The position numbers and the translations under genes are program-made. Below are positions 1 through 20,813 of a stretch of DNA of 20,813 bases, in pieces; the stretch's first letter is position 1, and the number at the start of each line of letters is the position of its first letter. Below the pieces are notes generated by a model. It did no database searches. It was given only the letters and a program-made list of their open reading frames with translations, and was not told where the DNA came from. Origin of the DNA: Physcia stellaris (lineage: Eukaryota > Ascomycota > Lecanoromycetes > Caliciales > Physciaceae). The stretch covers positions 1-20,813 of the forward strand of contig JABSSW010000126.1 of the NCBI GenBank assembly GCA_018902385.1. The letters are read 5' to 3'.

Positions 1-690
1 AAAATTATTCGAAAATGATAATTTTTATAATAAAAAATGAAATGAATTCGATAATCGTTGAAACATTATTGTCAACGAATTTTATATTTATTCAATCAAT
101 TCAATCGTTTTGACGATAATTGCAATAAAAACGCAATCAATTTCAATATTTTGATTTGTTTGTTCGATTTGATCATTCGATTTCAAATTAAAAAACAATG
201 AACAATTTATATTTGATTTTAATCGTTTACAAAAAAATTTCAAACGCGATTTACGAATTGATCATTTCGATTTGAAATAATAAAAAAAAAAATTCATGAA
301 TACGAAATACATAAATATTAACAATATTTTGACACAAATTTAATTGTTAAATCATCGTCATCGATTACGCAAAAAACGTAATGACGTTTTTGATCAAACG
401 ATCGATAATAATACAAATAACATTATTGTTTTGAAATCAAATAATTTAATTATGAAATTTATTGATATATCAATTTATCGTTGATTAAAAATCGACAATA
501 AAATTAACAATTCGTGACGATTATCGTGTGAAAATTTCGATCGTTGACATTTGTGACAGTTACGAATATAACGTTTGATAAATAATTTCATATTAAATCA
601 ATAATAATAACGTTTAATGAATTTTTAAATACGATTCATGTTGAATATACACAAAAAAATTGATCGTAAAAACGTCACGAATTATTTCAA
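1..690 (-). pseudogene. Element A integrase remnant
   Basis: Integrase joins retroelement cDNA to chromosomal DNA. Conceptual minus-strand reading gives the zinc-binding end as KRYYY-stop-FNM followed by RYIRNCHKCQR, with the CxxC intact at 547-558 and the expected Trp now TGA. Next comes a match to the usual PLPIPNQRW-type linker with its Trp now TAA, then ISINF, where families have IS(M/I)DF, so the first catalytic Asp is Asn. The second motif, normally SDRG, reads SNRN, so the second catalytic Asp is lost. Further left I read LRFYCNYRQND-stop-ID, matching the region after the catalytic Glu. A frame change near 420 and another near 180 are needed. The reading continues to position 1, so the C-terminus lies outside. 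All losses fit G-to-A after a purine. Confidence 0.8.
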
Positions 691-1199
691 TCATCAAATT
701 TAATTGTTTCGACATTTATAAATTTTCGTTTTTAAAAAAAATTTCGTTTCGATCGAAACAATTTTCAAATTTATTTTTCGTTAATAATTTGATTATCGAT
801 CAAGAATTGACGATAATTAATACAATTTTCGTTCTTTCGATTGCTTTGCATGACAGCGTTCGTATAAATCGTTTTGAACGTTAATCGAACATAATTGCAA
901 TCGAAAAAAAAAACAAAATTTGTTTTTTATAAAATTCACGTTCGTTGTTTTTCGACGAAACGAAATTAACATTTTAATCAAAACGTTCGTTTTAACGTTT
1001 TTAATTTCGAATTAATATTGAATTTTGATATTGTAATTCGTTAAAATTTCGATTTAACGTATTTGACGAAAAATGAATTTTATGTTTGTCATAAAAATTT
1101 TCAAATTTTGTAATCGATGTAAATTTCGATCAATTCGTCGATATTTTCGAATTTCGAATTTTATAAATAATTTTACGATTCGCGCAAAAATCATTTTTT

Positions 1200-2157
1200 G
1201 TTAAAAAAAAAATTATCGTGAAAATTTCGTCGTCGTCGAAAAAATTGAAATTTTGAAAAAAATCGATTTTCAAAATATTTGATTTTTCGAAATTTCGAAA
1301 AATGAAATTTCGATTATTTGTTTTTTCAAATTTCGAAATCGTTTTAACGAAATCGATTCATTCGAAATCATTTTTTTTTTGATTATTCGAATTAAAAATT
1401 TGACGAATTTCGAAAACGTTTTAATGAAACGTCGATAAAAATTGCAAAAATTTACAAACGTTTGCATTTTTTTGATGCATGTTGAACGAATTCAATTGAC
1501 GATGTTTTGTATTTTTTTAAAATTTATGCGTAATTTTTTTGTCGATAATATAATTTTTAAAAATGAAATTTTTGTTTGAAAAAATTCGCATTTTTTGATA
1601 TTTATTTGAAAATCAATTTTTTTCAATTTTTGAAATATTTAAATGAAATGTCGTTCATGTTATTTTCGAATTTTGTTGTAAATAAAAATATCATTCAAAT
1701 ATATTTGACAAAAATGATTAATATATTCAAATAACAAATTGTTTATGTAATGTTGTCAATTGATCGAATCATTGATAAAATCGAAAAACAATACATAATA
1801 TTTGTAAATGTTTAACGAACATATAAAAATAATAAAATTTTCGTTTTGTAAATTCATTCGAAATTTATTGAAAATCGATATAATATTTAATTTGAACAAA
1901 AATTTACAATCGATAATTTTGACGAGAATTTTTTCGATCAACGAAATAAAATAATTATTACGTTTGATTATAACGTTTAATTTTCGATAATTTACACACA
2001 AACGAAATTGTTCATTCGATTTGACAACGAATAAAATAAATAAAATATAAAAAATTTTGTTTGAATTAATAAATTTTTTTTGAAAATTATCGTGTAAATC
2101 TTTTTGAAAAATTTCGAATTTTTTGAACGATAAAAAATAAATTCGATTTCGAAACAA
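1200..2157 (-). pseudogene. Element A reverse transcriptase / RNase H remnant
   Basis: The longest open part (2157-1756) reads as Ty3/gypsy RT fingers and palm: FRLCVNYRKLN, then SLIEK (families have PLIDE), then KLNIISIFN for the usual KLDIxxAFN. The same frame continues past a TGA at 1756-1758 into QHYINNLLFEYI and the catalytic box, which reads YLND at 1687-1701 instead of YLDD: one catalytic Asp has become Asn. Further left (1467-1270) FVNFCNFYRRFI is the standard connection motif (GFxNFYRRFI) before RNase H. The RNase H active site is not clearly readable. Pro-to-Ser/Phe, Asp-to-Asn and Trp-to-stop changes dominate, as expected from CpY mutation. The gene is non-functional. The RT assignment is secure; the RNase H end is approximate. 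Confidence 0.88.
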
Positions 2158-2791
2158 TTAATTTGAATTTTCGATCAATTCGATTTTGTAATAATAAAAT
2201 TTATAAAAAAAATAATTTGTTTGTTTTTTTCGAATTCAATACATTTTCGAAACGTTTAAAGAATTCAAAAATTTTACGTTTCAATTTTTCGACGATTGTT
2301 TTCATAATTTTAATTATTTTTGAAAATTAAAATTAAAATTAATTTTTATTTTGATCAATTTTTTTTGACGTTGTCAATAATTGCGTTTAATTTTTTCATA
2401 ATCAACGAAAAAATTTTGATTTTTTTAATTTTGTTAAAAATTGAAAAATCGTCGCGTCATTAAAAATCACGTTCAATAATATATCAAAATCGAAATTTTG
2501 TTCGTTATTTTTAATTTTCGAAATCGTAATTTTAAATCGTTTATTAAATTAACGTGCAATTTTTTGAAAATGTCAAATTTTTTATTGAAACGTTAATTAA
2601 ATTCGATTTTTGAATTTCGCGTATAATTTTCGTTTTTCGTTTTTTTTTGAACGATTTATTCGATAAATATTTTTTGTTTATTTTTTCAATGACATATTTG
2701 AAATTTGAATTCAAAAATTTTTTTATTGATAATATGTTTTTTTTTGAATTTTTTATCGTAAAACGAAAAAAATTATTCGAAAAAATGTCAA
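2158..2791 (-). other. Element A protease-RT linker, left part
   Basis: About 630 bp of saturated AT-rich sequence between the RT block and the nested element. By position it is the protease-RT linker of A's pol. I see no conserved motif here, as expected for a region that is poorly conserved in this family. Open frames that run from here across 2797 mix A sequence with LTR sequence and are not genes. Confidence 0.5.
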
Positions 2792-2796: not shown

Positions 2797-2972
2797 TGTT
2801 TTTGCAATGATATGGATAAACAACAGGATTCTAGACTGAAACTAACGTTATGGGGACCTGGCGGCCATATGTAGGTGGTTTGGTCATAGCGGGATCGGGC
2901 CCGGATCCCGGTGTGATAAGATAAGGGTCCAAACACCTACCAGGGTCTCAACATTTCAGTACGCTCGTCACA
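2797..2972 (-). repeat. 3' LTR of the gag-only element
   Basis: 176-bp terminal direct repeat, TG at 2797 and CA at 2972 on the plus strand. It matches 5053-5228 at about 90 % by eye. Differences are scattered substitutions plus one- and two-base indels. Only the first few bases (TGTTTTTGC against TGCCATGC) look like C-to-T change. It retains the arm ATTCTAGACT that pairs with the leader in the 5' copy. Confidence 0.92.
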
Positions 2973-2990
2973 TTACCCCCGTTCCCTCCC
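2973..2990 (-). promoter_or_regulatory. Polypurine tract next to the 3' LTR
   Basis: On the minus strand the bases directly before the 3' LTR read GGGAGGGAACGGGGGTAA, a purine-rich run ending exactly at the LTR's TG. This is where plus-strand DNA synthesis would be primed. It fixes the orientation of the element and agrees with the Gag reading direction. Confidence 0.75.
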
Positions 2991-3058
2991 AGCTTCGTCG
3001 AAGCGACTAACCATTCCTCCCACTCCTCTCATCGGCCGGCGGTTCGGGGGTATGGTTA

Positions 3059-4654
3059 TTAGGGCGTTTTAGCTGAACGGGCCATTGCGAAAGCTGGAAT
3101 GACCGAAGCAGGTGCAACAAACGTGATCTGGGGTCCGAGATCGAAAGGATGGCGGAGATAGGCGGAGACGTAGGCGAAACGTAAAAAGGCCATCGGATGC
3201 GGACCTTGACTGCAGAAATGAGGACCTTGACTGCAGCGAGGTGTAGGAGATGCCTTTTTTGTATGGTGAAATGGCCGATTTCTCAGGAGGGCAGGGCGGA
3301 TCGTTTCCGCAGGCGTAGGCTGCTGAAAACTCTTCGATTCGAAGCTTTTCAGACCCTGACTAATCGGTGCCTTCTGATTGGCTGCAGGCAGGAAGTAGGT
3401 GGTGATGCGAGACTGATATGTGGCAGGTGGCCGAGCGCCGATGCTCTGCGGAGAAGGACGGCGCTTTTGGTGCTGACGTAGGCCAAATGGCCTAGGCTTC
3501 CCACGAAACATGTGGATCAGGTCATCGATAGTGAGATAAGGTTTCTGGTGTTCTGGTACAGGTGTTCGATGAGGTGTTCGAGGAGGTGTTCGAGGAGGTG
3601 AAGTCGGAGGTGTAAGTGAATTGGCTGGTAGTTTCTCCATCGATTTCGGTGTGATATTGAGTGTCGCAATAGGGAGATCCGAACACTTTGGTGATATCGA
3701 TGCAGGGGGGGTAGGCGGAGGAGCAAGCGGGCAATTGAACGCAGCAAGTTCGGCTCTCTTTGGTGTGAAACCTCGTGTGGCTAGCATTGCTGCGATCTCC
3801 GCTTGCTTTGGTGTAATATTGAGTGTGGCAATAGGGAGATGCGATCCCTTTGATGATACTGGTTCAGATATCGATGCAGGGTAGGATATCGACTTTGGTG
3901 TTGCAGGGGGGGTAGGCGGAGCAAGCGAAGCAGGCAGGCAAATGACTGCTGGCTTCTCCTTGATTTTGTACGTTGATTCTGGTGCGGGGGATCGGAGATT
4001 CGAGTTCTTTGATGTGGCAGGCGGAGTGACAGGCTTCTGAGCATGATACTCGCGTATGTGATCGTGGAGCTTGTTCTTGGAGTTGAAGCCTTGCTCGCAA
4101 TGCTTGCAAATGGCTTTGGTGTTGCAGCAAGCGGTCTCTTGTCTGGTATGCTCTAGGAGTCGACTCATTGACGAGAATTGAGCGGAGCATTCGACGCACG
4201 AGTGATAATGAGTCGGAGGTTGTGAAACGGGCGGAGCAGGTGTTTTCGCTGTAGGTTCAATTGAGGTAGTAGGAAATGCACATGCTAGGCCGCGGCCGAA
4301 GTCTTGTATGGTGGTGAAGGTCTGATCTTTGAACCATGCGAATGCAGGTCCTCGAAGGCATTTGGGTAACAGAGCGAGCACATCTGACTTCCGATATTGG
4401 TGTTGACTTTGCTGGCGCTCAAGGTGTTGCAGAAAGCCCGTGACTTGACTATACAACCCGAACTCCTGGATATCACATATGAGTGTTGGATCGAATATAC
4501 CGATATCACGGGGTGTTGGTATAGGTCTTGCAGCTTCGATAGCCTCTCTTTGAGCTCGTCGTTGACGTAGCTCTTGCAGCCGTTGCTTGGCCTTCAGGAT
4601 TTCGGCTTTCGCGACCTCGGGGTCTGCTCGCTTCTGGGCTTCTGGACAATGCAT
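3059..4654 (-). CDS. Gag-like protein with two C2H2/C2HC zinc fingers and a proline-rich tail
   Basis: A 531-residue intact ORF, the only undamaged gene here. It would form the particle that packages the element's RNA. Residues about 10-45 are a charged helix likely to coil. Residues 65-128 (LYSQVTGFLQHLE, AFAWFKDQ, ACAFP) resemble the capsid-like core of fungal retrotransposon Gags. The fingers follow: C153-C156-H169-C176 (variant) and C183-C186-H199-H204 (classical C2H2). Residues 205-375 are rich in Pro/Ser/Thr, with LPIATLNITPK repeated at 273-283 and 327-337. YLTIDDLIHMFRGKPRP (373-389) looks like a conserved tail motif. C2H2 fingers replace the usual CCHC knuckle. The first in-frame ATG was chosen; the frame stays open upstream to a stop at 4754-4756 without another ATG. 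Role inferred from context and motifs. Confidence 0.85.
   Translation of the reverse strand: MHCPEAQKRADPEVAKAEILKAKQRLQELRQRRAQREAIEAARPIPTPRDIGIFDPTLICDIQEFGLYSQVTGFLQHLERQQSQHQYRKSDVLALLPKCLRGPAFAWFKDQTFTTIQDFGRGLACAFPTTSIEPTAKTPAPPVSQPPTHYHSCVECSAQFSSMSRLLEHTRQETACCNTKAICKHCEQGFNSKNKLHDHIREYHAQKPVTPPATSKNSNLRSPAPESTYKIKEKPAVICLPASLAPPTPPATPKSISYPASISEPVSSKGSHLPIATLNITPKQAEIAAMLATRGFTPKRAELAAFNCPLAPPPTPPASISPKCSDLPIATLNITPKSMEKLPANSLTPPTSPPRTPPRTPHRTPVPEHQKPYLTIDDLIHMFRGKPRPFGLRQHQKRRPSPQSIGARPPATYQSRITTYFLPAANQKAPISQGLKSFESKSFQQPTPAETIRPALLRNRPFHHTKKASPTPRCSQGPHFCSQGPHPMAFLRFAYVSAYLRHPFDLGPQITFVAPASVIPAFAMARSAKTP
3201..3236. repeat. 21-bp tandem duplication inside the Gag ORF
   Basis: GGACCTTGACTGCAG occurs at 3201-3215 and 3222-3236. 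The period of 21 bp keeps frame and gives CSQGPHF then CSQGPHP in the protein (residues 474-487). Confidence 0.85.
3561..3600. repeat. 12-bp tandem repeat inside the Gag ORF
   Basis: Three adjoining units (GGTGTTCGATGA, then GGTGTTCGAGGA twice) and a partial fourth. They encode the PPRTPPRTPHRTP run near residues 353-365. The in-frame unit suggests length variation between copies. Confidence 0.85.
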
Positions 4655-5052
4655 CGTCGGTATCGCGAAGGTTGGAGAAGACGGCCGATTTGCTAGGAAA
4701 TAGGTAAGGATTTCGAAGGGTTCTCGAGGCAGGTAGGTGGTTCGAGTGTTGAGTTATCGTGACGGTTCTGAGGTCTGGTTGGAGGTTTCGGAACCGGCTT
4801 TTTGGGGGGTGTGAATGCTTCTTTAATCTCGCGTATCACAAACGAGCGGTGAGGTAGATGTAATGGCCTGAGTAGACGTGTAGAAAGGAGGAATCGAGAT
4901 TCGTTGATTGGTGGTCTAGAAACTAGAACCTGGTCGACGAAGCTCTACTGCGAAATGCAGTGCTCGGTCCAACTGCCTGCTACAGGCTATGGTTGAGGCA
5001 TGTACGAAGACATACCCCGGGTGGGTTTGTAAGAGTCTAGAATAATGTAAGG
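4655..5052 (-). other. Leader of the gag-only element
   Basis: About 400 nt between the 5' LTR and the Gag start on the minus strand, with no ORF of note. The plus-strand word CGCGTATCACAAACGA at 4832-4847 has a near match, CGCGTATCATAAACGA, in the leader of element A at 7830-7845. AATGTAAGG lies directly next to the LTR, matching AATGTGAAA in A. A primer site complementary to a tRNA 3' end (TGG...) is not visible; see the hairpin entry. Confidence 0.6.
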
Positions 5053-5092
5053 TGCCATGCAATGATATGGGTTAACAACAGGATTCTAGACT
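5034..5092 (-). promoter_or_regulatory. Putative self-priming inverted repeat across the 5' LTR/leader junction
   Basis: AGTCTAGAAT at 5034-5043 (leader) is the exact reverse complement of ATTCTAGACT at 5083-5092 (inside the LTR, 30 bp from its edge). In element orientation the LTR arm comes first and could be the 5' end of the RNA, folding onto the leader arm as in Tf1-type self-primed elements. Function is inferred; the pairing is seen. Confidence 0.55.
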
Positions 5093-5228
5093 GCAGAACT
5101 AACTATGGGGGCCTGGCAGGCCATATGTAGGTGGTTTGGTCATAGCGGGATCCGGGCCCGGATCCCGGTGTGATAAGATAAGGGTCCAAACACCTACCAG
5201 AGTTCCAACACATAGTACGCTCGTCACA
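5053..5228 (-). repeat. 5' LTR of the gag-only element
   Basis: 176-bp direct repeat of 2797-2972, TG at 5053 and CA at 5228. In element orientation it opens TGTGACGAGCGTAC. It includes a near-palindromic GC-rich core (GATCCGGGCCCGGATC at 5150-5165) and should carry the promoter, but no TATA box was assigned with confidence. Confidence 0.92.
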
Positions 5229-5233
5229 AATTG
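5229..5233. repeat. Target site duplication, right copy (AATTG)
   Basis: AATTG directly after the right LTR, identical to 2792-2796. Confidence 0.9.
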
Positions 5234-5465
5234 ATCGTTTTTGAAATATTTGATATTTTTGAATATTTACAAATGATAACGACGTCAAAAATCGTTTCGA
5301 CGATAATAAATAAAACGTTTTATTCGATTGTTTGTTCGAATTAAATAATTTTTGAAATATGAATGAACGCGATAACAAAAAAAATATTTTCACGTAATCA
5401 CAATGATTTGAAATAAAATAACATTCGTTATTGATTATATTGAAAATTATTTCGTGTTTGTTTAT

Positions 5466-5753
5466 TCAAAATTTATTTAAAATCAACGAATGTTGTTTTA
5501 TTTTAATGATAAACAATGAAACGAAAATTTTTGAATAATTTTGTAACGTCATTTTGAATAATATTTGATAAATAATAAATTTGATTTCAATTTTTTCGAA
5601 ATTAAAAATTTTTTTGAATCGAAATAAAAATATTGAAATCAATTTTAATTTATGACATATTTTTTGCGCAATTTTTTCATTAATGAAAACGTATTCAAAA
5701 ACATCGATATCAATTAAATCACGAATTATGATTTTTCGATCGTTCGAAAACAA
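5466..5753 (-). pseudogene. Element A aspartic protease remnant
   Basis: This would cleave the Gag-Pol polyprotein inside the retroelement particle. The 95-residue open stretch reads LIDIDVFEYVFINEKIAQKI, aligned to the fungal Ty3 pattern (L)IDSGA-x-YxFIDEKFAxxL, and later IIKIKQHSLILNKF for the usual LITKLGQHPVILGKPW. The catalytic D-[ST]-G-A has become D-I-D-V (5700-5711). ACC-to-ATC, GGT-to-GAT and GCT-to-GTT would give this, every step being CpY or its complement. The terminal Pro-Trp is missing. It lies between gag (right) and the nested element (left) and is part of A's pol. Confidence 0.8.
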
Positions 5754-6077
5754 ATTTATTTTTTTAATTAAAAATTTACAATGAAATTCGTTAAAAATGT
5801 TATGTTGAAAATTTCGTGAACAAATTTTGATAATTTTTTTCGCGTTTTCGAAAAAAACAATTAATTTTTCGATTCAATATCGAAAATGATAAAAATATCG
5901 AAATTAATATTGTCGTTGTCGATATTCGAAAAATTATCGTTAATCAAAAAAATGATTTGTAAATTGAATATTTTTTGTTTGATTAAATTATCAATTCAAT
6001 TATCAAAAAATTTATCGAACGAACATTTTTTTTATCAATGATTTTTTTTATCGCATTTGCGACAAATTTTTTTCAAA
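5754..6077 (-). other. Element A gag-protease connector
   Basis: About 320 bp between the Gag block and protease, saturated with CpY-type mutation. It should contain the rest of Gag. I could not read an intact CCHC knuckle; no other feature is visible. Confidence 0.4.
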
Positions 6078-6527
6078 TTAAAACGAACGATGACAATTTT
6101 GTACGTTTTTTTTTTCGAAAAAAATTGTGTATCGAATTTTCAAATTTTTAATGTATTGTTTATTGCGACGAATTTTAAAATTCAATTTGTTCGTCGACGA
6201 TTTGATTTTAATAAAAAAAATATTAATTTTGACATCATTGTTTTTGATACGATAATATTTGTTATTTATAATTTGAAATTTGCGTAAATAATCGTCAAAA
6301 ATTTCAAAATCATTCAATTCGATTTCGACGTGTTGAAATTTTGTGATAATTTTTTTTTCGAAATTGTGAATTTTATCAATCTCGTTTTTTTTGAGTATTT
6401 GATTTGTTAATAAAAAAAATTCGAAATAAAATTCGTTAAAAAATTCGATAAATTTCATTTTCAAATTATCGTATTGACGACGAACGTTTCGAAAATAATC
6501 GACATCGATATAAATATCGTTTAACAA
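6078..6527 (-). pseudogene. Element A gag remnant (capsid region)
   Basis: The open stretch begins LNDIYIDVDYFRNVRRQYDN, then LKMKFIEFFNEFYFEFFLLT. Fungal Ty3 Gag has the pattern DIYGDPxRxxNARREFxxLxMKxxExFxxFYxEFxRL, so the alignment is good and the substitutions (Gly-to-Asp, Pro-to-Phe, Ala-to-Val) are those expected from CpY mutation. The final residues, NVQNCHRSF, may be the damaged knuckle region. Gag is on the right of protease, as expected for a minus-strand element. The N-terminal part lies further right and is less readable. Confidence 0.75.
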
Positions 6528-7366
6528 TTTGAAAATTTGTTCAACGAACGTGAAAAAATGACGTTGAAATTCATGTCGAATATCAATGTGTTTTATTGAT
6601 TTATTTTTCGTTCAATCAATAATTGCGAATTTTTTTTAAAAATTGTTTGCGTATCAATCGAAATTGACATTTAATTTATTTATGCATTTATTTTTTCAAA
6701 TGTTATAACGAATGTAATCGAAAATATTGAAATTTTTATGTTCAAAAAAAATAAAAAAAATAAAAATGTTTGAACGAATATCGTTTAAATTCAAAACGAA
6801 TTTTTTCATCAATGTTGAAAAATTTTTCAAATTTTGATAATGTAAAATTTTTTTTTTTTCGATGTGCAATTTTATTATCACGTATTCGTTGAATTTTGAA
6901 AAATCATTGTATCGAATTTGAACGATAAAAATTTCGATTTTGACGATACGTAAAATTTTATTGATTTTATATTTTTTTTATTATGATTCGAAATTTTGAT
7001 TTTCATGTTTTTTATTTGAAAATTTCAAATTCGAATTGCGATCATTTTTCGATTTCGATTTCGTCGAAAAATTTCAAAAATAATTCACAAATCGTCGAAA
7101 TGTTTGACGATCATGATTTGAAATTGTTGTTTCGAAAAAATGTTTATTGAATTGACAATTTTGATCGATTCATTTTCATCAAATTTATCGTCATTTTGAT
7201 TGAAATTCAAAACAAAAAAAATATCGATGATATGTTGTTCGAAATTTTTGATTTTTAAATTCGAAACATACACGTTCAAATGTTTAATTTCGTTAAACAA
7301 TATTCGTTTTTTCAAATTGATTTCGAAAAAAAATTTGAAAAAATCATGATGATAAATCGAATTCAA
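6528..7366 (-). pseudogene. Element A gag, probable N-terminal region
   Basis: By position this is the start of A's gag. Minus-strand open stretches at 6881-6696 and 7366-7085 have no diagnostic motif. The latter has an acidic run (NQNDDKFDENESIK) that could be a linker. Base use is the same saturated pattern as the rest of A. Assignment is by position only. Confidence 0.4.
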
Positions 7367-7881
7367 ATAATTGATAAAATAAAAAAAAAACGAAAATTTA
7401 AATAAATTTCAATGATTGAATTTCATTCAAAATGATTGATTATGTGTGATGTTGAATGAAATTTTTAAATGTTTGTTTTTTGATGAAATTATTGAATGTT
7501 AAATAATTGTGTTTGTTGTTGATTTGATAATATCATCGTATCATTTTCGAAATAAAATTTCTTTTGTTTATCGTGATAACGATGCAAAATCGATTTTGCA
7601 AAAAAAAAAAATTGTTGTTTTTGTGAATCGAAATTATCGCGTAAATTCGTTTGTTTTGAATGTTTTTTAAAACAAAACAAACGAATTTATTATGTTTCGT
7701 TTTTTTCAATTCACAACGAATTTATTATGTTTCGTTGTTTTCGTTGAATGATCAAAATCAAAATGAATTTATTATGTTTTTATTCGTTCATTGAATTTAA
7801 TTGTAAAAAATTTTGTTTATTTGAATGTTCGCGTATCATAAACGAACATGAAAAAAAAATTGATTTCGATATAATGTGAAA
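7367..7881 (-). other. Element A leader with short repeats
   Basis: No gene is readable. CGAATTTATTATGTTTCGTT occurs at 7682-7701 and 7717-7736, and a shorter copy, TGAATTTATTATGTTT, at 7764-7779. CGCGTATCATAAACGA at 7830-7845 matches the leader of the gag-only element. AATGTGAAA sits next to the LTR. Confidence 0.6.
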
Positions 7882-7932
7882 TGTTATGCAAAAATATAAA
7901 TTAATTACATAATTACACGAAAATATCGAAAT
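7863..7932 (-). promoter_or_regulatory. Putative self-priming inverted repeat of element A
   Basis: ATTTCGATAT (7863-7872, leader) is the exact reverse complement of ATATCGAAAT (7923-7932, inside the LTR). The leader arm is followed by a 9-bp spacer (AATGTGAAA) and then the LTR's TG, the same spacing as in the gag-only element (AATGTAAGG). Arm sequence differs from that element while pairing is kept. Confidence 0.5.
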
Positions 7933-8091
7933 GAAAAACAAATACATAAAATTTGAAAAAATATATGTAAAAAATTTGATTTTTTGAATGCGTTAAAACG
8001 AATTTCGATTTTAACATTCGAAATAATAAAATAACGATATTAATTCGATGTTAAATTTGTTTGATGTTGAATGCGATACACGTTCGTCACA
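7882..8091 (-). repeat. 5' LTR of element A
   Basis: The plus-strand edge TGTTATGCAAAAATATAAATTA resembles TGCCATGCAATGATATGGGTTA of the gag-only LTR after C-to-T/G-to-A change. The other edge, CGTTCGTCACA, resembles CGCTCGTCACA. Length is 210 bp against 176. The middle can only be aligned loosely. The partner LTR is outside the window, so the boundaries are by homology and TG...CA. Confidence 0.6.
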
Positions 8092-8699
8092 ATTTTAATA
8101 TATTTTTTTGACGAATCGTTTCGCATTATATCGATTTAAAAATTTTCACGATTAATATAAATTGTAATTAATCAATTTTTTTCAAAAACGTTGATTGTTT
8201 TTTTGTTGATTGTTTCGAATTTTTATTTTTGAATTTACACGTAATCACATCGACGTTTTTCGTGTTTTTGTTAATTAAAAATCGTTCGATATATATAAAT
8301 TTTTAAACAATTCATGTCATAATCGATAATATTTAATTTAAATTATGTTGTCAAATTTTCATGCATTTGAATTGAATAATGTTTTATTCACGAAATTTTT
8401 TTTTGTAATTGATTTTTGACACGATTCGAAACAATATTTTTTATTTTTTTTTAAAAATAAACAAAGTTAAATTTTTTAATAAATATGAAATTTGAATTTG
8501 AATCGTTGTTGTGAACGTATAATATCAATTTCGTAAATTATATTTTAATCGTTGAATGATTTATTGTTTTCTTTTATCAATTATTTATTTTAATTGTTTC
8601 ATGTTTTTGCATTTCGTGATTTTTGTTTGTTGTTTATTTTTCGAATTATTTATTAAATCGATATTTTAAATTTCAATATAATCGTTTGTACAATTTTAT
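8092..8699. other. AT-rich gene-free stretch
   Basis: About 600 bp between the LTR of A and the C-terminal end of the Plavaka remnant, with the same saturated base pattern. It may include the transposon's downstream end. No terminal inverted repeat or ORF with recognisable motifs was found. Confidence 0.5.
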
Positions 8700-10263
8700 T
8701 TTTACAAATAATAATTATCGACAATCAAAACGTTTGTTCGACGCGTATTGTTTTGTAACATTTGATTTTCATAATTTTTTCGTTTGTTGATTAATTTTTA
8801 CAAACTTTTCAAATAATTCGAATGAATCGTTTTTTCAATTTCGATATTAAAATTTGTCACAATATCGTATTTTCGAATAAAATGTGAATAATAAATCAAA
8901 TTATGCATTTTGAAAATATTGAAAAATCGTTTTTTTTTTGAAAAAAACGCAATGTTTTTTTGACAATATTAAAAATATTCAAATAATATTGTATGTAATT
9001 CATGATTGTTTCGATATACGAATAATAATAAATTATTATTGTTATATTGATTATTATTTTAATGCAAAACAACATTTCGAATTGTATTTTTTTCAAATAA
9101 AAAATCATGACAAATATCATTTGACGTATATTGTTTTTAAATTTTTTTGTTATTTTTTTGTATTATTATACGTTTTTCAAATAATAAAAATTTTTGTATA
9201 ATAAAATACGCGTTCATGTTTGATTCAATTGTTTCGTTATTTCGATATGAATTCAAATCAATTTTTTTTGTATTGTTTTTTTTTGAAAATTTTCGTCATA
9301 ACGTTTGAAATTTGAAATATTCAATTTTTTACGTACAAATCAATCATTTTTTTTATTATTTGATGTAAAAAATTTGAAAACATTTTTTAATACACATTAA
9401 ACAAATAATGTTTTCAAACAAAATTATTGATCGATTTGATATATTCGTGTCGATTTTAATCATTTTTTTATTTTTTTATTGTTGTTTTTTGATTTGATTT
9501 TTGTTAATTTGATAATTACGCATAAATCAATGTTCGTGTAAATACAAATTTTCAAATTTTTTATTTGACGTTATACAAATCGAATAATGAAATTTGTTTT
9601 TGACATTTGTAATTAATGTTTGTTCGAAATAATCAATCGATATATTCATTAAAATCGAATAATATTTTTTAAATTCGTTGTTTGCGTATCGTATCGAAAT
9701 TTCAAAAATCGTATATCGTTTCAATGTTGATACAATAACAAAAATTAATTTATCAATTTTTTCGCAAAAAATTGTTAATTTACGACTTAATATGATTTTT
9801 ATACATTTATAATAAAATTTCGATTTTATACTGTTTTCGTCAATCGATATCGAAATTAAATTCAATAAAATAACGTTTAATCAAAAACGTTATTTTATAA
9901 TCGTATCGTTCAAATTCGTTATAATTATATATATTGATTATAATTGTGATACGTCATTTATAACGTTCAATTTAAATTAATTATTTAACAATTTGATTGA
10001 TATTATTATTATTTTAACAAATAATTTTTTTGTACGCGTTATCATCAATTTGTTATATGTATTTTTGTTTATATTCGAATAGCGTCGTTTGTTATGTGTG
10101 TTTCGTTCGACGTTGTAATTTCGTATTTACGAATAAACGCGTACATTAAATTGTTCGTAAAAAATTTGTGTTTTATGAAAAATTTCAATATTTTAATACA
10201 ATCGCGATAATACAACGAATAACGATTGACGAAAACATTTTCAATTTTTGATTTCACGATCAT
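8700..10263 (-). pseudogene. Plavaka-like DNA transposase remnant
   Basis: Plavaka transposases are large fungal cut-and-paste enzymes related to the CACTA/KDZ group. In order on the minus strand I read LYYRDCIKILKFF and NNLMYA (about 10.2 kb; families have YYRDxxxxxxxLxxxxxFxxxLxYAPE); RI-stop-TKIHITN followed by three consecutive stops (10039-10047), exactly where the family has RIYxEMHTGDWWW; SIYIIITNLN (about 9.93 kb; family YPVYLTIGNL); YYSILMNISIDYFEQTLIT (about 9.65 kb; family CYPILxxxxxDYxEQVLIT); LHEH-stop-FMRNYQINKNQI (about 9.5 kb; family WPxRTHxxTQxQI); and near 8.8 kb NKRKNYENQML. Several stops and frame changes make it dead. Family call is good; ends are approximate and the N-terminus may extend to 10713. 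Confidence 0.75.
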
Positions 10264-10713
10264 TTTTTTTATTTATTCATTGTTTTGAATATTTTTGTTC
10301 AATATATTTAACATATTTCATCAATTGTTATTATTTTTTAATTGTACGTGTTTTTACATAAATTTCAATTTTTTGTCGATACAAAATTGATTTATCGTTT
10401 TTTTAATGTATTTGTTGTTGTTAAATTATTTAACAAACGCATATACGCACGATAATTTAAAAAAATCATATAATTTGTTTTCGATTGTTGAATTTTTGTT
10501 TTTTGAACTATAATCAATTTTTAACGATGTTTTTATTTTGATATCGATTACATTTTTATAAATTATGATTTTGACAAGTTTGTTCGTGAATTTTTTCAAA
10601 AAAATTTCGTGCAAAATTTCAGAATTAGATTTAAATTTGATAAAATTACGAAAATCGATATTTCGCAATTGTTTTGCGATTTTAACGATTTCGTCTTTTG
10701 ATAACATTTGCAT
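10264..10713 (-). pseudogene. Possible N-terminal part of the Plavaka-like transposase
   Basis: An open minus-strand stretch (10713-10426, 95 residues) lies directly upstream of the transposase blocks in the same orientation. I recognise no motif in it: it is basic and Lys/Asn-rich, as any reading of this AT-rich DNA tends to be. Some ApG/CpT dinucleotides survive (for example near 10505, 10577 and 10621), so it is a little less mutated than its neighbours. Membership in the transposon is inferred from position. Confidence 0.35.
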
Positions 10714-10837
10714 TCAATAAATAAAACATATAAACAAAAATTCGTTTTGAAATTCGAAATGAATTTTATTCAAATAATCAATAATATTGAAAATCGATCG
10801 AATGCGTATTGAATTATAATCGAAATCGTATCGAAAC

Positions 10838-11277
10838 GTTGCAAACATTTGAAAAAATGAAATTTTTAAAAACGAAACGTTTAACGATGTAATTTTGAAA
10901 ATTTCAAAATTATTGCGATAACGAATCGATTTTAACGATTTTTGAAACGTTAAAATACGTTCATTTAATTTTACAATTTTGAATATTAAAATGAAAATCA
11001 TATGTGATTGACGATTGATGTGCAAATTGCAAAACAATTGTACGAACGACGAAAAAATGAACGAAATTTTTTCGCAATCATTTCAATTGCGATTTGACAC
11101 ACATTTGACAATCATGAAATTTTCGAAATTTCAAAACTATTGCGATAATGAGCGAATTTTTGTTATTTTTGCAATTTTGAAATGCGTTTATGTTGTTTTA
11201 CAACTTTGATTAAATAAATGAAAATTATATGTGATTATTGATTGATGTGCAAATTGCGAAACAATTGTACAATGCGA
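10838..11277. repeat. About 227-bp imperfect tandem duplication
   Basis: TATTGCGATA at 10911 recurs at 11138, and ATGTGATT...GATGTGCAAATTGC at 11002 recurs at 11229, both with an offset of 227 bp. ACATTT at 10845 recurs at 11101 with an offset of 256, explained by a 29-bp indel. Both copies read similarly on the minus strand (FCNLHINRQSHMIFI against FRNLHINQ-stop-SHIIFI). The copies have diverged. It lies upstream of the Plavaka remnant and may belong to it. Confidence 0.75.
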
Positions 11278-12384
11278 AAATTGTTTTGATGTTCATTTTT
11301 AAATTTTTTCTTTGAAAATTTTTTTCAATTGATGAAAATTATCGAATTTAAAAATACGATTTCAATATTGATCAAAATTTTTCGCGATCGATCATTCGCG
11401 TTAACGAATTTACAGAATATTTTATTATAAAAAGATTTTATAATCGAATTTTCGACAAATTTTTTGTTTTTTTTTGATAAAATTGTCAAAATTTATATCG
11501 TTAATTATTGATTCGATATTGTTTTTGTCGAAATGATAATATAAATTCAAAATTTTCAAACATAATTTTTTTGTTTGTTTATTTATTTTGATAACTTTTT
11601 TTTACGAAAATATAATTTTATAAATGTATATTTTTTATCGTTTCGATAAAAATTTACGATTACGATCAAATAATGTTTAATATTTACGCGAATAAATTAA
11701 AAAAACGCGATTGTTTTTATTAATATACGAACAATATCGATAATATCATATTTTCATTTGTTGATTTTAAAACGAAATATTTAAAAAAAATTTCGAAAAT
11801 TTATCGTGTTTTTCGTTGTGAAAATTTCGATAAAAACGAAAACGAAAAAAATGAAAAATTTGAAAAACGAAAATTTGACATTTAATTGAAATCAATTGTT
11901 CGATAATAAACGATAATTGAAATAACGATAATTGAAAATTCAAATTTCGATACAAACGTTCGTATTTTGTTTCAAATCGATAAAAATTAATTTCGATTTC
12001 GTTTTTAAAACGTTTGTTTGTTCATTTGTTTTCAAACAAAAATTTTGAAATATATTCACGTATCAAAAAAATTATCGATTGTCGTTTTGATATTATGTCG
12101 CAATATATACAAATTACGCATATAATCAAAAATAATTCGTAATTTTAACATGTGTTAAAACATTAAATTTCGCATTAATTTAATTAATTGTTATGTCATG
12201 TCAAAATCGTCAAACACGTTAATTTGATCGAGTCTAGCGTCTTGATCGATAAAATATAACATTTCAAAAAAGAATTTTTACGTTTTTTTTCGTTTTCACG
12301 ATTCAATTTTATCATTATTCACAATGTTATCACGATGATTTGATCATCGTTTCGTAAACATTCGTTTGTTTCACAATAATCGAT
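11278..12384. other. AT-rich gene-free stretch, probably containing the 5' LTR and leader of element B
   Basis: About 1.1 kb without a recognisable gene. By position the 5' LTR and leader of plus-strand element B should be here, but I found no convincing direct repeat between this stretch and 17.6-18.7 kb. GAGTCTAGCGTCTTG at 12229-12243 is a small island with several ApG/CpT dinucleotides in otherwise depleted sequence. Confidence 0.5.
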
Positions 12385-13502
12385 TTGATCAAATCAATCG
12401 TATATTTTTTTACAATTTTGAATCGTTTAAATTTTCGTGAACGATTGTTCGATCAAATGACTTCATTTAAAATTTCGAAAACATTTGTTGTCGTCGCGTT
12501 CGTGATTCGAAACAATATCGTTATTTCGTTTCAACAATTATCATTCGATAACACGATCGTGAAATCGTTTCAATTTGAAATCGATCAACGAAACGAATTG
12601 ATTTCAATTCATGAAAATTCATCAAACGACGAACGTATTGTTATTGCTTTTCGCGTGTCGTTTCGACGTGTTATTGTCGTTTCAACGAACGTCGACGATT
12701 TCGAATTCGATAATCAAATTGATTACGCACAATTGCGAACAATTCAAACGATAATTGAAAAAAAAACGAAAAATAAACGTGAATATAAATTGTTTTTGAA
12801 AAAAATCAAACGTTTCGATTCAACGTCGTTTCGAAAAAACGAAATTAATTCAATTTGCGTTGTTGAAAAAAAACGAAAACGTTCACAAACGTTTTTCAAT
12901 AACGAAAACGACAATGACAATGACGACAACGAAAAATTTCGTAATAAATTTATTTCGAAACGTTCGCGTTTTCGACGAATCATCGAATTCAAATTCAAAA
13001 ATTTATTCATTTATAACGTCAAAAATATTAGAAAATTTCAATCGTAAATTCGAAACGTCGTGTGAATTTTCGAAACAAATTTTAATTATTTTTTCAAACG
13101 TCGTATCAAAATCGTTTGAACGTAACAATTTTTTGATACGATTTCAATCGAATTATGAAAATCGCATCAAAAAATCAATCAACATCGAAAAAAATTGATG
13201 ATGACGTGATCGTATTTTTCGAAATTTTTTCATAACGATGTCGAATTTTTTGAAATTCGTCGTTTTAATGTGAATTAAAAATACAATAATATCAAACAAA
13301 AAAAAACGATAAATGAATTCGCAACGCATTTCGAATCGTTAAAAACAAAATTGAACGTTATCGAAAATATTAAACGAAACAAATTTTTTTATGATTTGAA
13401 CGATATTTTACGAAAAATTATCACATTCGATGCAATTTCGTTGACGATTCGTCAAAAAATTTTGATTAAAATTGTCAATACGAAACGATCGTCATTTTAT
13501 TA
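12385..13502 (+). pseudogene. Element B gag remnant
   Basis: The first 220-codon open stretch (12385-13047) has a coil-like KKTKNKREYKLFLKKIKRF segment, an acidic NDNDNDDNE linker, and ends IYNVKNIRKFQS. This matches the YKGKNIRELQEF motif that opens the capsid domain in many fungal chromovirus Gags. The capsid core follows in other frames. From 13198 to 13501 one frame with only two internal stops reads FATHFESLKTKLNVIENIKR and then FFYDLNDILRKIITFDAISL, typical of this Gag family. The first start is uncertain, since the reading opens at a non-ATG codon (ATC). Gag would build the particle; here it is broken. Confidence 0.75.
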
Positions 13503-13659
13503 AAAATTTTCAAAACGTTTTCGATTTTCGCAAATTTTTTCGTTCGAAAATCGTGAACGTCAAAAAAACAAAAATTTCGTTAAAAATAATTTTTTTGCGC
13601 AATTTGATAAAACGAAAAATCAATTTGATAAAAACAAAAAAACGATGTCGATTCGTCGA

Positions 13660-13730
13660 CGAAAAAAAATCGAAATTGTTACAATTGCGATAAATCGAAA
13701 TATAAAAAACAAATTGTTTTTATTCAAAAA
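13660..13730 (+). pseudogene. Element B Gag zinc-knuckle remnant
   Basis: A plus-strand frame reads CYNCDKSKYKKQ, aligned with the CCHC knuckle CYNCGKxGHxxxxC that binds retroelement RNA. Both N-terminal cysteines survive, Gly is now Asp, the His position reads Tyr, and the last Cys is reached only after a one-base frame change. It sits between capsid and protease as expected. Confidence 0.6.
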
Positions 13731-13864
13731 AAAAACAATCGTCGACGTCAATGCGATTCGCAAAAATAAAAACAAAATATTTTCAAAATTTATCGAAATC
13801 AAAAACGATTCGAAAAATTGAAAAAATTTATTGCGATAATCGTCGTTGTCGTAACGAATTTATA

Positions 13865-14180
13865 TAAAATTCAATCAAATAACATATTTATTCGCGTTAA
13901 CATCAATATTTTTGAAAAATAACAATCGCAAATGAATTTTATGAATTCGATCGTTAACATAAATTGTATTTCGAAATCGTTAACGAAAAAATAAAATTTG
14001 CAAAATATCGACGAAACGTTTATGAAAATAAATAATTTCGATATCGAAAACAAATTTTTCATTAATACGTATCAAATGAAAATGAATGTTCGTGATAACA
14101 AAAATAATTTTTTCATTTCGATACAAAAATTTTATTCGTTTCAAAATTTGATGTATTTTTTGATAATAAATTTTTCATGA
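13865..14180 (+). pseudogene. Element B aspartic protease remnant
   Basis: One plus-strand frame from about 13870 to 14179 reads FMNSIVNINCISKSL where the family has ALVDSG..xNFISxxLA. The catalytic Asp is Asn and the Gly is not recognisable. It continues NIDETFMKINNFD, YQMKMNVRDN and FYSFQNLMYFLIINFS, the last matching the (M)YxLIIGxPWL end of fungal chromovirus proteases. Two in-frame TAA codons lie before the second half. Position between knuckle and RT supports the call. Confidence 0.65.
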
Positions 14181-14282
14181 ATAATGAAAAACAATTTACA
14201 CGTATATTGATTCACGATGACGTGACGTTACACAATCAAAAAAAATCGATTAAAATTAAATATTTTCGAAAATTTCACGACG

Positions 14283-15100
14283 ATGTTGAACGATAATATC
14301 ATTTCAATATACGTGTTGATATACATTATACGAAAAAACAACAAAACGTTAATCGAAATTTCGAACGAATTGCAAACATTTGAAAATATGTTTTTTTTTA
14401 AATCGACGATCACGTTTTTTTCGCACGATAAACACGATCATGTTATTGATTTAATGTTGAACAAATTTTCGTTTTTCGAATTTTTGTACAATATGTTTCA
14501 AAAAAAATTAAAAATTTTTCAAAAATACATTCGCGAAAATTTTGCGTTAAATCGTATTAAATATTCGATTGTCGATATTGATACGTCGATATTGTTTATT
14601 TTCAAAAAAAATGAAAATTTAAAATTTTGCGTGAATTACAAAAATTTGAATACGATTATAATCAAAAACAAAATTTCATTATCGTTGATTGACGAAACAT
14701 TAAATCGTTTGATAAACGTCGCATATTTTATCAAATTAAATTTGAAAAACGAATATTATCGTATAAAAATTAAAACAAATGACGAATAAAAAATCGTATT
14801 CAAAACACGATACGATTTTTTCGAATACGTCGTGATGTTTTTTGATTTTGTCAATACGTCGACGATTTTTCAATTTTTCATGAACAAAATGTTTGCAAAA
14901 TTGATAAACAAATTATATGTATTGTTTTTAAACGAATTTTGATTTATTTTCGAACGAAAAAAACATTGAATTACGTGAAAACGATGTTTAAACGTTTTCG
15001 AAAATTCAATTTTTTCGTCAATTTAATCAAATGTCGATTTATGTAAAAATTTATTCAATTTTTAAAATATATCATCAATAACAAAAAAATAATCATGAAC
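14283..15100 (+). pseudogene. Element B reverse transcriptase remnant
   Basis: The stretch 14283-14789 contains LKFCVNYKNLN, then SLIDETLNRL, then FIKLNLKNEYYRIKI, matching the RT core (LRFCVDYRxLN, PLIxExLxRL, FTKLDLxxAYxxIRI). After a TAA where the family has Trp (EWKT), the same frame gives RYDFFEYVVMFFDFVN (family RYGxFEYxVMPFGLxN) and the catalytic box region FLNEF at 14925-14939, where YLDD is expected; both catalytic Asp are gone. Downstream thumb sequence is hard to read. Without its nested neighbours this is a fairly continuous, single-frame fossil. Confidence 0.85.
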
Positions 15101-15770
15101 ATAAAAAAAATAAATTTGATCAAATTATGATCGATTTTTAACAATTTCAAAAAATTGCAAATTTTTTTGAAATTCGCAAATTTTTATCGAAAATTCATCG
15201 TAAAATACGCGAAAATGTCGCGTTCATTTTTCGAATTATTGAAAAATAACAAAAACGAAAAACAAATCGACGAATTCATTTGAAACGACGAAACAATGAA
15301 AATTTTCAAAAAATTTATTCGCATGTTCATCGAAACGTTTATGTTAATATATTTCGATTTCAATAATCGAACAATAATAAAAATCGATGTTTTAAAATTC
15401 GTTATCGCAAAAATGATTTCGCAATTGATAAAAAATTTCGATATCGAAAATTAAACGCAATAACATTTCGTCGTTTTTTATTCAAAAAAAATGATATTTG
15501 TCGAAATCAAATATTCAACGCACGATCAAAAATTGTTTGTTATTGTGAAAAATTTCAAACAATGACGTTATTATTTAAAAAATAATCAATTTACGATTAT
15601 CGTAATATCGAATCATAACAATTTGAAATATTTTATGTTTATTACGTTTTTGAACAAACGACAAATCAAATGAATTTTATTGTTAAATGAATATAATTTC
15701 GAAATCAAATACAAAAATAAAAATTTTAATTTGACAAACGAATTATTTCGACGTTCAAATTACGAAAACG
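15101..15770 (+). pseudogene. Element B connection and RNase H remnant
   Basis: Blocks in plus-strand order: FARxxxFIETFMLIYFDFNN, then IIKIDVLKFVIAKMISQL (family IxxxTDASDxAxGAVLSQ), YSTHDQKLFVIVKNFKQ (family YxTHDxELLAIVxAFKxWRHYL), HNNLKYFM (family DHxNLxYFM), and LLNEYNFEIKYKNKNF followed by LTNELFRRSNYE (family LSEYDFxIxYRPGKxNxxADxLSRRPDYE). The order and spacing are those of Ty3 RNase H. Catalytic acidic residues are partly lost and a Trp near 15560 is a stop. Confidence 0.8.
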
Positions 15771-15829
15771 AAAACGAAAATAATAATATTTATTTGTTCA
15801 CATTGCAAAACAAATTTCGAAATATCGCA

Positions 15830-17225
15830 ATTGCGAACATCGCGTTTTCAACGAAATCGAAACAATGCGAAAAAATTTTTGACGAAAAATTTTCAAAAAA
15901 AAATTTTCAAAACGAAATTGTCGCGATATCGCAAACAATGCGTCGAAAAAAAATTGTTAAAACGTGTAACAAAAAAAATTCGTACGAAAATTCATTTCAA
16001 AAATTTTTAACAAAATTAAAAAATTGCAAATGATCGACAATAAATGCGTAAAACGTCGCGCATTTATACAAAACGATAAAAAATTTAAAAATTGAACGTT
16101 AAATTCGAACAATATTTTACGATATTGATATGTTGTATATGTATCAAATAAAACAAATTTAAAAATCGAAATTTTGCGACGTTGTCACGACGATTTTTGC
16201 GAAACATTTCGAAATTGAAAAAATCGTTAATTTTATTCAACGAAAATTTTATTGAATGTACATGCGAAAAAAAACATCGAAAAAATACATCAAAAAATGC
16301 GCGATATGTCAAAAAACAAAAATTCATTATTATTGTTTTTACGAAAAATTGTCGAAATTGTCGATATCGACAAAATCATGAAAAAAAAATTATCATAAAT
16401 ATAATCACAAAATTTTCATTCACAAATAACGCAAAAAAATTTACGATTCGATTATAATAATAATAAATCGATACATCAAAATAACGATTTACGTTTCGAT
16501 CAAATTTATCATGAAAATAAACGAAATATGTGATTTGTTTTTCGACGACGTTTTTTTGAAATATAATTTATCGAAAAACATAATTTTAAATCGTGAATTT
16601 TTGTTACAAACAATTTTTGATCAACATTATGTTATCACGCGAAAATTAAACGCAAATTTAATATCGTTTTTTATTCACAAACAAATAATCAAACAAAAAA
16701 ACAAAATTAAATTTTTAAATATTATTTGCGATGTTTTTGCAATTACAAACAAAACAATTGAATTTCGTTGTTGTTAATAATCGTTTTCGTATACAATTGC
16801 ACAAAACACGCGTTTATTGAATTAATTTCGTTTGAAATTTTTTTCGAATACATTTCAAATTTTAATTTCAAATTCGATTTTGTTCAACAAAACATTTCGA
16901 CGACGAAACAAAAATTTCAAAATTTGTTCGATAAACGAAAAAAATTACAAAAAAATTTGAAATACAATAATGAAACGCAAACAAAATAAATTAACAAAAA
17001 AATATTCGCGAAAACATATAATGTAAAAAACAAAATTATATTGTCAATCAAAAATTTAAAACAAATGCGACGATCAAAAAAAATTGTTCGACAAATACAT
17101 CGAATTTTTTGAAATTGAAAACGTTGTCGACACGCAAATTTATCGTTTAAAATTGTCATTCAAATAACGCATTCATTCAATATTTCACGTGTTTTTATTT
17201 GAAAAATATTATATTAACAAATTCA
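15830..17225 (+). pseudogene. Element B integrase remnant
   Basis: The zinc-binding region reads KHFEIEKIVNFIQRKFY-stop-MYMRK, then KKCAICQKTK with the CxxC intact at 16298-16309; the stop replaces the Trp of YYWPxM. The second catalytic motif reads IILNRE at about 16583-16600 (family IISDRx), so the Asp is lost. The C-terminal half continues as FVYNCTKHAFIELISFEIFF (family FAYNxSxHxSxxxSPFEAxxG). Near 17040-17110, LSIKNLKQMRRSKKI and HRIF match the GPY/F module (LSTKNLKxxRPSKKL, GPF). Several frames are required. Integrase would insert cDNA; this copy cannot. Confidence 0.8.
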
Positions 17226-17257
17226 CAAAATCGTTTGCGAAAATAATTTTGATAAAC

Positions 17258-17380
17258 AATCACGAAAAATGAAAAATAAAAAAAATTTTCGACGTGAAAA
17301 AAAAAATGTTTCGATATTTGATTCGTTGAAAAAAATATTCATCATGTGATAATAAAGAATTAAAAAAAAAATTTGAATAA
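17258..17380 (+). pseudogene. Element B chromodomain remnant
   Basis: Chromodomains on integrase tails bind modified histone H3 and steer integration to heterochromatin. Here the plus strand reads EK-stop-KIKK, then after a one-base slip IFDVKKKMFRYLIR-stop-KKYSSCDN. The family pattern is EWEVExILDxRxxxxxxxYLVRWKGYxxxDDTW. Both stops fall on conserved Trp positions. Placed directly after the GPY/F module, as in other chromoviruses. Confidence 0.75.
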
Positions 17381-18689
17381 CGTCGACGAAACGTTGACGA
17401 CGTTCAAACGAAAACGTGTCGAAATTCAATTGTCATTTTTCGTCAAAAAAAAAAACGATCGTTCAAACGAAATTTTGCGAAATCAAATTTGAAATTCAAA
17501 AAAAACGACGATTTGTAACAAAAAAAACGCAAAATGCGAATTCTTTTACAATAAATTGTTTCACAAATAATAAAATCAATAAAATTTATTTTTTTAATAA
17601 TTGTGTCGTTGCATTGAATATGTACAAATGATTAATAAACATGTTGAAATTATCAATTAATTTTTTCATGCGATGTTTTTTCAATTCGTCGTCGTTTTTG
17701 TGTTAAAAAAATCACAAATCAAAATTTGTGAATTACAATGAATATCGTTTTGAATTTTATTTTCGTTTTTATCGTATTGATTTTTTCGATTGATTACGAT
17801 TTGTTCGATTTTGATAAAAATAATATTCAAAAACGATCATTACGTTTATTCGACGTTATCGTCGTCGAAATTCATAATTTCAATATAAATCGAAATTTGA
17901 TTTTCATTTTTTTTTATTTGAAAAATTAACGAAACGCATAATTGAAAAATTTTCATTGACGCGAAACGAATCGATCATAAAACGTAAAATTTGATTGATA
18001 TCGACGAATCGAAATTTCAAACGCAACAACAAATTTTTAATCGAACGATGTTAATTCGATTTTTTTTTTATGTAAAATGTTGTTGAATTTTCACGATCGT
18101 ATTTTTCAAACGCAATTGCAAATTCGATATCAAATTGTCGCGTTTGTATTTTATTGCAATTGTCAAAATCATTAAATGTTGTTGAATTCGACGAACATAT
18201 TTAAAAAAAATTAACGTGCAAAATTTGCGAATCGACACGCATATAAAACATTTGTCGTCGTAAAACGATCGAAAACATTACGCAAATCAACGCAATCAAT
18301 TAAAAACGTAAAATACATATTTTATGTTCGATATCGTCAGATTTGCGTTTGACGCATTTCATATAACATTTTACACGAAACGTGTTCACAACACGTTTAA
18401 AAAATTACAAAAATTAACACACAAAATCACGAAAACAAATTAAATTTACAATTTTGATTTTGACGTCACGCGAAATCATTACGTGTTTCAATAACAATAA
18501 AAAAAAAAACAATAAATTTATTGTTGACAATTTTGATATTGTACAAATTGTCAACGTCAACAAAACACAATTTAAACGCGAAAAACATTTTTATCAAATT
18601 GTTTCAAAATAATATTGAAAAAAAAAAATAAAAAAATGATCGTAATAAATTTTTGTGTACGCGTCAAAACGTTAATTATGTAAAACGCA
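17381..18689. other. AT-rich gene-free stretch downstream of element B
   Basis: About 1.3 kb that should include B's 3' end and LTR, but no matching upstream repeat was found. A 63-codon open stretch at 17738-17929 has no recognisable motif. Perfect inverted repeats occur at 18378-18398 (9-bp arms AAACGTGTT/AACACGTTT) and 18523-18555 (11-bp arms GTTGACAATTT/AAATTGTCAAC). A-rich runs at 18490-18510 and 18616-18637 could be eroded purine tracts. Confidence 0.5.
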
Positions 18690-20811: not shown

Positions 20812-20813
20812 AA

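Follow-up and report, generated by a model that had tools for sequence, protein, structure and literature searches.

The 20,813-nucleotide stretch analysed here (the window) makes up all of contig C126 (JABSSW010000126.1) in the assembly of Physcia stellaris, a lichen-forming fungus of the Caliciales, family Physciaceae (PMC7513301). Apart from a nested, GC-balanced and unmutated element (2797-5228, reverse strand), positions 1-18689 of the window consist of repeat DNA in which C is almost never followed by a pyrimidine (CpC or CpT, together CpY), and this deficit is considered here as a possible trace of repeat-induced point mutation (RIP). The main count covered 1-2796 and 5229-18689 (16,257 bases, i.e., 1-18689 minus the nested element). 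By direct count, CC and GG were absent and CT and AG occurred 20 times each, against 188.8 CC, 207.4 GG, 684.7 CT and 713.3 AG expected from base composition. Taken together, there were 0 instead of about 396 CC+GG (Poisson probability about 1e-172) and 40 instead of about 1,398 CT+AG. CA (789), TG (873) and CG (943) all exceeded expectation. The next base was A or G for 1732 of the 1752 C, and the preceding base T or C for 1816 of the 1836 G. An earlier reading of the window from its letters alone (the sequence-only reading) had noticed the near-absence of the four dinucleotides and the retention of the three others, and both were borne out. In 5229-18689, TpA was depleted and not raised (observed/expected 0.51), and the CpG ratio of 4.66 indicated no CpG loss of the kind caused by Masc2-type methylation and deamination. 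The end of the window (18690-20813) represented an intermediate stage, in which all but one CC/GG and about half of the CT/AG had been lost (CC 1, GG 0, CT 48, AG 62, CA 111, CG 130, TG 146).

The direction and the target of the change were apparent from copies of element A (5229 to approximately 9000, reverse strand). For the part at 5600-7600, 43 genomic matches were listed, its own included, and 30 of them (L009-L038) were cut out and aligned. All 30 loci retained just 0-11 CC/GG in the core, and they formed a graded series, both by CpT loss and by GC content, which fell from 0.297 to 0.191. The nine less-mutated (young) copies were compared as 72 ordered pairs, scoring each C that reads T in the other copy. 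This was the case for 216/232 CpC and 4853/8071 CpT, in contrast to 636/17161 CpA and 229/14560 CpG; C-to-T changes were thus far less frequent at CpA and CpG than at CpT or CpC, in line with the sequence-only reading. The CpT rate agreed between the strands (0.612 and 0.593). Among the nine copies, 5934 C/T or G/A differences stood against 312 transversions, so that transitions are concentrated in the repeats. The 3' base was decisive, whereas the 5' base (NCT rates 0.515-0.679) and the +2 base (CTN rates 0.547-0.658) had minor effects. Loss per copy was scored at columns with C in at least one of the nine young copies, excluding 20 columns of mixed 3' context. The least mutated copy, L032, had lost 13/25 CpC, 177/321 CpT, 20/246 CpA and 12/207 CpG, and L012, among the most mutated, 25/25 CpC, 311/315 CpT, 20/244 CpA and 11/206 CpG. 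Across the nine youngest copies, CpT loss had already reached 0.55-0.75 at a CpA loss of 0.05-0.09. Other highly mutated copies had lost more CpA (L009 66/230, L036 57/181), which makes CpA a slow second target. At individual CpT columns of the plus strand, T was found in 0 to 8 of the nine copies, so the same column varies by copy. A copy of element B (L050) was likewise exhausted (CC 0, GG 0, CT 1, AG 2).

An independent reference was provided by ribosomal DNA (rDNA). A single match to 5.8S rRNA turned up in the assembly (L046, C41:45899-46052 plus flanks), and it is a CpY-mutated rDNA copy with pieces of the small-subunit (SSU) and large-subunit (LSU) genes. Compared with the Rfam consensus, it reads T at 28/32 CpC and 20/36 CpT, and at 0/28 CpA and 0/36 CpG. 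This count used consensus capitals with a capital neighbour in the 5.8S, SSU and LSU blocks, the LSU alignment being partial; it leaves out SSU block 1400-1490, where many pairs are broken next to a large insertion, the variable stretch 454-635 of the LSU, and the part of SSU block 1673-1761 that follows its first inserted base. A smaller count on part of the blocks gave 15/17 CpC, 8/15 CpT, 0/13 CpA and 0/22 CpG. The rRNA comparison gives the C-to-T direction without any assumption about ancestral elements. The functional rDNA may be missing from the 147 contigs analysed; the published P. stellaris assembly comprises 184 scaffolds and 46.57 Mb (PMC7513301).

The genome analysed (44.0 Mb, with CCCTAA telomere repeats) was sampled with 20 stretches of 1 kb, placed at round coordinates on eleven contigs from among the larger ones. 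Seventeen of them were balanced, with 112.5 CC/GG and 132.7 CT/AG per kb, one was intermediate and two, of unassigned content, were AT-rich (CC/GG 0 and 0, CT/AG 16 and 0). All 18 that were not AT-rich kept CC/GG and CT/AG. In 59 chosen loci, which are not a genome census, CT/AG fell from 135.9 per kb at GC 0.45-0.50 to 4.5 at GC 0.15-0.20 and CC/GG from 106.9 to 0, while the drop was smaller for CA/TG (137.2 to 99.8) and for CG (48.2 to 44.6). The ratio (CpT+ApG)/(TpT+ApA) was 0.99-1.02 in three genic loci and 0.006 in mutated DNA. The bias therefore does not recur in the genic DNA examined, and the statement that it is not a genome-wide composition holds, given the balanced nested element (GC 0.518), the genic loci and the sampled stretches. 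A foreign or native AT-rich composition, considered as a candidate, was ruled out by the graded copies and by the C-to-T changes of the rDNA relative to conserved rRNA. Since the change is seen both copy against copy and against conserved rRNA, it is confirmed that the CpY pattern is the result of C-to-T (G-to-A) mutation. It is found in several elements and in an rDNA copy, but not in the genic loci.

The usual RIP detection index does not register this mutation. A positive difference between the two classical RIP indices is taken as RIP. This composite index was -0.69 in mutated DNA and -0.54 to -0.68 in genic DNA, and exceeded zero in 0 of 32 segments of 500 bp; the thresholds used to call RIP are at least 0.89 for one index and at most 1.03 for the other (PMC2621366). 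CpY mutation thus escapes the index.

RIP acts strand-wise along each copy, and some strand imbalance was present here. In the 2-kb core, five of the nine young element A copies were imbalanced at p<0.05. The imbalance was strongest in L032 (110/155 on the plus strand versus 75/182 on the minus strand, p 5.9e-8); L027 leaned the same way (p 0.048, marginal), and L023 (p 0.014), L024 (p 0.00069) and L026 (p 0.0006) leaned the opposite way. No imbalance was seen in the core of L028, L029, L030 and L033. The same-strand minus opposite-strand covariance exceeded that of all 2000 shuffles of strand labels. The imbalance fits a few strand-wise enzymatic rounds better than slow decay.

These observations argue for a RIP-type defence in P. 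stellaris which probably turns C into T in repeated DNA, one strand at a time, where the 3' neighbour is a pyrimidine, by means of an enzyme of the RID/DIM-2 group. CpC would be attacked first and CpT next, CpA would be a weak secondary target, and CpG would be hardly touched. Repeated rounds would exhaust CpY and leave AT-rich DNA with C almost only before A or G, and the responsible pathway would presumably be the RIP pathway of the sexual cycle, which operates from fertilisation to meiosis and requires RID or DIM-2. The resemblance to RIP of Neurospora crassa includes C-to-T changes in repeats, the sparing of genes and the presence of RID and DIM-2 homologues; unlike in N. crassa, CpA is nearly spared, CpC is hit first, TpA falls and the composite index is negative (-0.69). 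The CpA preference of canonical RIP was not found, neither among the young copies, where CpA changes were rare relative to CpT, nor in the rRNA. Because the process works like RIP without this preference, it is filed here as a RIP variant with 3'-pyrimidine specificity.

The strand data bear on another reading, namely that silent repeats are methylated by a DIM-2-type enzyme preferring CpT and CpC and then decay by slow spontaneous deamination in heterochromatin. The genome does contain a DIM-2-like gene, and Neurospora DIM-2, according to a 2026 review, methylates all CpN contexts with a preference for CpT (PMC13297926). However, slow deamination should be strand-symmetric in each copy, which the five imbalanced copies are not, and methylation of all CpN should also have hit CpG and CpA, which are largely intact in L012 although its CpT is almost gone; we therefore regard this reading as unlikely. 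An imbalance of C-to-T between strands would also fit a dedicated AID/APOBEC-like cytidine deaminase acting on single-stranded repeat DNA. AID/APOBEC enzymes, however, read the 5' side, whereas the specificity of RIP lies 3', and here the 5' base was of minor influence. A PF08210 (APOBEC) search gave no match; as the controls gave none either, absence was not shown. Such a deaminase appears quite improbable.

Base-calling is a further source of apparent C-to-T changes, since the published assembly combines Nanopore and Illumina reads (about 31x and 30x; PMC7513301), and a methylated C before a pyrimidine might be miscalled as T and stay uncorrected in repeats. The variation of the same CpT column from copy to copy speaks against this, as does a mutation level that is characteristic of each copy and sometimes strand-imbalanced. 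In our judgement, the disappearance of all CC from 16 kb also exceeds what miscalling should give, and an artefact is very improbable. Canonical RIP at CpA, with another process later restoring or masking CpA, would agree with the weak CpA losses of old copies (L036 57/181, L009 66/230). It is hardly credible in view of the nine youngest copies, in which CpT loss is advanced and CpA loss slight, the untouched CpA of the rRNA and the depletion, not increase, of TpA.

Several observations weigh against a RIP-type defence of strict CpY specificity. CpA is not fully spared, as its loss reaches 0.08-0.31 in 11 copies with CpT loss of at least 0.94, and old copies such as L036 and L009 show more of it. 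For the nearly pure CpY pattern proposed from sequence, the dominance of CpC and CpT and the sparing of CpG hold, and the sparing of CpA holds only in part. Element B (12301-18689, boundaries approximate, forward strand), for which 44 genomic matches to 13000-15000 were listed, differs from its copy on contig C23 mainly at CpA (59/226 and 13/189), with 27/323 and 4/285 at CpG. These differences are what remains because CpY is exhausted in both copies; those at CpA count against a pure CpY rule and are read as a slow secondary target. Moreover, the element A copies share ancestry and their pair counts are not independent events, and local same-strand patches beyond the whole-copy imbalance were not seen among the nine copies once copy-by-strand means had been removed.

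A further objection comes from the nested element, which has near-direct terminal repeats (approximately 2803-2953 and 5058-5210) and a single open frame of 564 amino acids (3059-4753, reverse strand) with weak Pfam matches to C2H2 zinc fingers. Four relatives were retrieved from many matches listed (L047, L048, L049 and part of L038); they are 80-94% alike by search over 0.4-2.4 kb, and all are unmutated, with CpC and CpT kept. Compared by length alone with the 564-amino-acid frame of the window, their open frames measure 576 (L047), 594 (L048) and at most 287 amino acids (L049). In five alignments of three of these loci, used as a negative control, C of the window read T in the relative at 22/756 CpA, 61/799 CpC, 47/679 CpG and 40/746 CpT. 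The nested element had been considered as an unmutated reference for polarity, and was unusable because the retrieved relatives are unmutated too. RIP in Neurospora is triggered by repeats of more than roughly 400 bp and 80% identity, and the nested relatives should accordingly be hit. Their escape may mean that, unlike in Neurospora, homology does not act as the trigger, that the process is now inactive or rare, or that it has a high identity threshold.

A search of the genome with PF00145 gave four matches at three loci, and the RID/DIM-2-like methyltransferase genes that the sequence-only reading had proposed to look for are indeed present, two of RID type and one DIM-2-like. RID-A (L043, contig C6) has 513 amino acids after splicing. 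RID-B (contig C5) has 934 amino acids in the gene model and 932 in its database record, where it is a hypothetical protein. The DIM-2-like open frame (contig C3, 1118 amino acids) was named by resemblance and size, without a tree. RID-A and RID-B were placed among RID/DmtA-type proteins in a tree of 51 of the 231 listed proteins plus RID-A, built by a quick method and with long branches in three rows; the depth of the RID-A placement is uncertain. RID-A formed a group with Heterodermia and seven other database proteins (support 100), which in turn joined Eurotiomycete DmtA-type proteins (support 96), and RID-B grouped with long Lecanoromycete RIDs.

C5-methyltransferases read their target between motifs VIII and IX. 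In this putative target-recognition stretch, the four complete rows of the RID-A clade have LIA (3/4) or IIA (1/4) and PDG (4/4), the other five rows ending earlier. Among the other 43 rows, LIA/IIA and PDG were each found in none; the first place is T, C or A in 40 of 43, mostly as TIT or CIT, and PSG stands in place of PDG in 33 (two or three rows being incomplete there). Judged by these sequences, RID-A is the likeliest candidate for the enzyme that makes the CpY changes, and RID-B and DIM-2, likewise C5-methyltransferases of the RID/DIM-2 group, are also candidates. The link between RID-A and CpY is putative and comes from a single genome, which counts among the points against the proposed defence. 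Purified RID, according to a review, showed no detectable activity (PMC13297926). We tentatively propose, as a possibility that we hold to be rather less than even, that RID-A is a divergent RID paralogue of the Physciaceae line whose rebuilt target-recognition stretch switched RIP from CpA to a 3' pyrimidine; the specificity would then be re-programmable, and surveys based on CpA/TpA indices would have overlooked it across this group of lichen fungi.

CpT as a RIP target is already known; what differs here from the reports available is CpC/CpT mutation with CpA nearly spared. Regarding the contrast with classical RIP drawn by the sequence-only reading, the kept CpA and the TpA that is not raised hold, whereas CpT by itself does not set the pattern apart. 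In the passages available of the following sources, CpT to TpT exceeded CpA to TpA in N. crassa Tad1 analysed by RIPCAL (PMC2621366), and CpT changes accompany those at CpA in Neurospora rDNA (PMC5555474), Anisogramma (PMC10998396) and Metarhizium (PMC4133081). Botrytis cinerea, Sclerotinia sclerotiorum and Magnaporthe oryzae carry a RID/Masc1-type gene, and CpT to TpT ranks first or second among their signatures; in those three genomes CpT accompanies CpA, CpC being unmentioned in the part of the source concerned (PMC4352252), in contrast to P. stellaris, where CpC is the best target and CpA and CpG are nearly spared. Alignments of large retrotransposon derivatives in the RIP-capable control fungi of van Wyk 2021 are said to be dominated by CpT to TpT, as here, but their classical indices are strongly positive (PMC7882544), and negative in P. 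stellaris. Some long terminal repeat families of Colletotrichum truncatum are CpT-biased, as here, but have strong indices (TpA/ApT about 1.6, (CpA+TpG)/(ApC+GpT) about 0.1; PMC6180176), unlike P. stellaris. In Basidiomycota that have Masc2-like enzymes, Microbotryum among them, transposons also show a C-to-T bias, with CpG as the target (PMC4352252), whereas CpG is spared in P. stellaris. The lichen fungus Cladonia rangiformis resembles P. stellaris in its bimodal GC content, its RID and DIM-2 homologues and the escape of some element families from mutation; the terms CpA and CpT have no occurrences in the main text of that paper, and its target may or may not be CpY (PMC12542154). A survey published in 2025 and covering 1,239 fungi concludes that a preference for CpA is common to RIP-like defences (PMC12543289). 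In the open-access literature, as far as its texts were available and with subscription papers outside the scope, CpT beside CpA was found, and in none of the cases were CpC and CpT targeted while CpA was spared. In the available text of the P. stellaris genome paper, the term 'repeat-induced' does not occur, and matches to 'rip' are to RiPP (ribosomally synthesized and post-translationally modified peptides; PMC7513301).

That mutation in these repeats begins at CpC and CpT, while most CpA remain, indicates that the RIP target is not fixed; a comparison of RID lineages could then show what gives RID-class enzymes their specificity for the 3' base. Under the genetic code, TGG to TGA is the one way in which CpY changes can create a stop codon, CAA, CAG and CGA giving none. 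With so few routes to a stop, nonsense mutations should contribute less to the loss of proteins under CpY RIP than under CpA RIP. Fairly long open frames survive in the mutated elements, at 12358-13047 (229 amino acids) and 14226-14789 (187 amino acids), both on the forward strand; they sit at 23-31% GC, as expected if few stop codons arise from CpY changes.

The remaining features of the window are as follows. The AT-rich repeat DNA at 1-2796, which precedes the nested element, holds CC 0, GG 0, CT 3, AG 5, CA 113, CG 155 and TG 139, and the nested element itself CC 85, GG 245, CT 140 and AG 173. Residual CT/AG number 6 in element A, 6 in element B and 20 in the CpY-depleted DNA between them (9001-12300, boundaries approximate, reverse strand). 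This last stretch contains a Plavaka transposase match (9527-9880, reverse strand; E 0.0032, under the curated cut-off). In the Pfam search, to which ten frames of the window were given, nothing beyond it was found except the weak zinc fingers of the nested element. The sequence-only reading had described two gypsy elements (A and B) and a DNA transposon; the many genomic matches to A and B agree with its claim of repeats, whereas the class names are little backed by Pfam, because the frames are ruined. The ends of the partly mutated stretch at 18690-20813 (approximately 18700-18830 and 20640-20770) look similar by eye, like the terminal repeats of another element.

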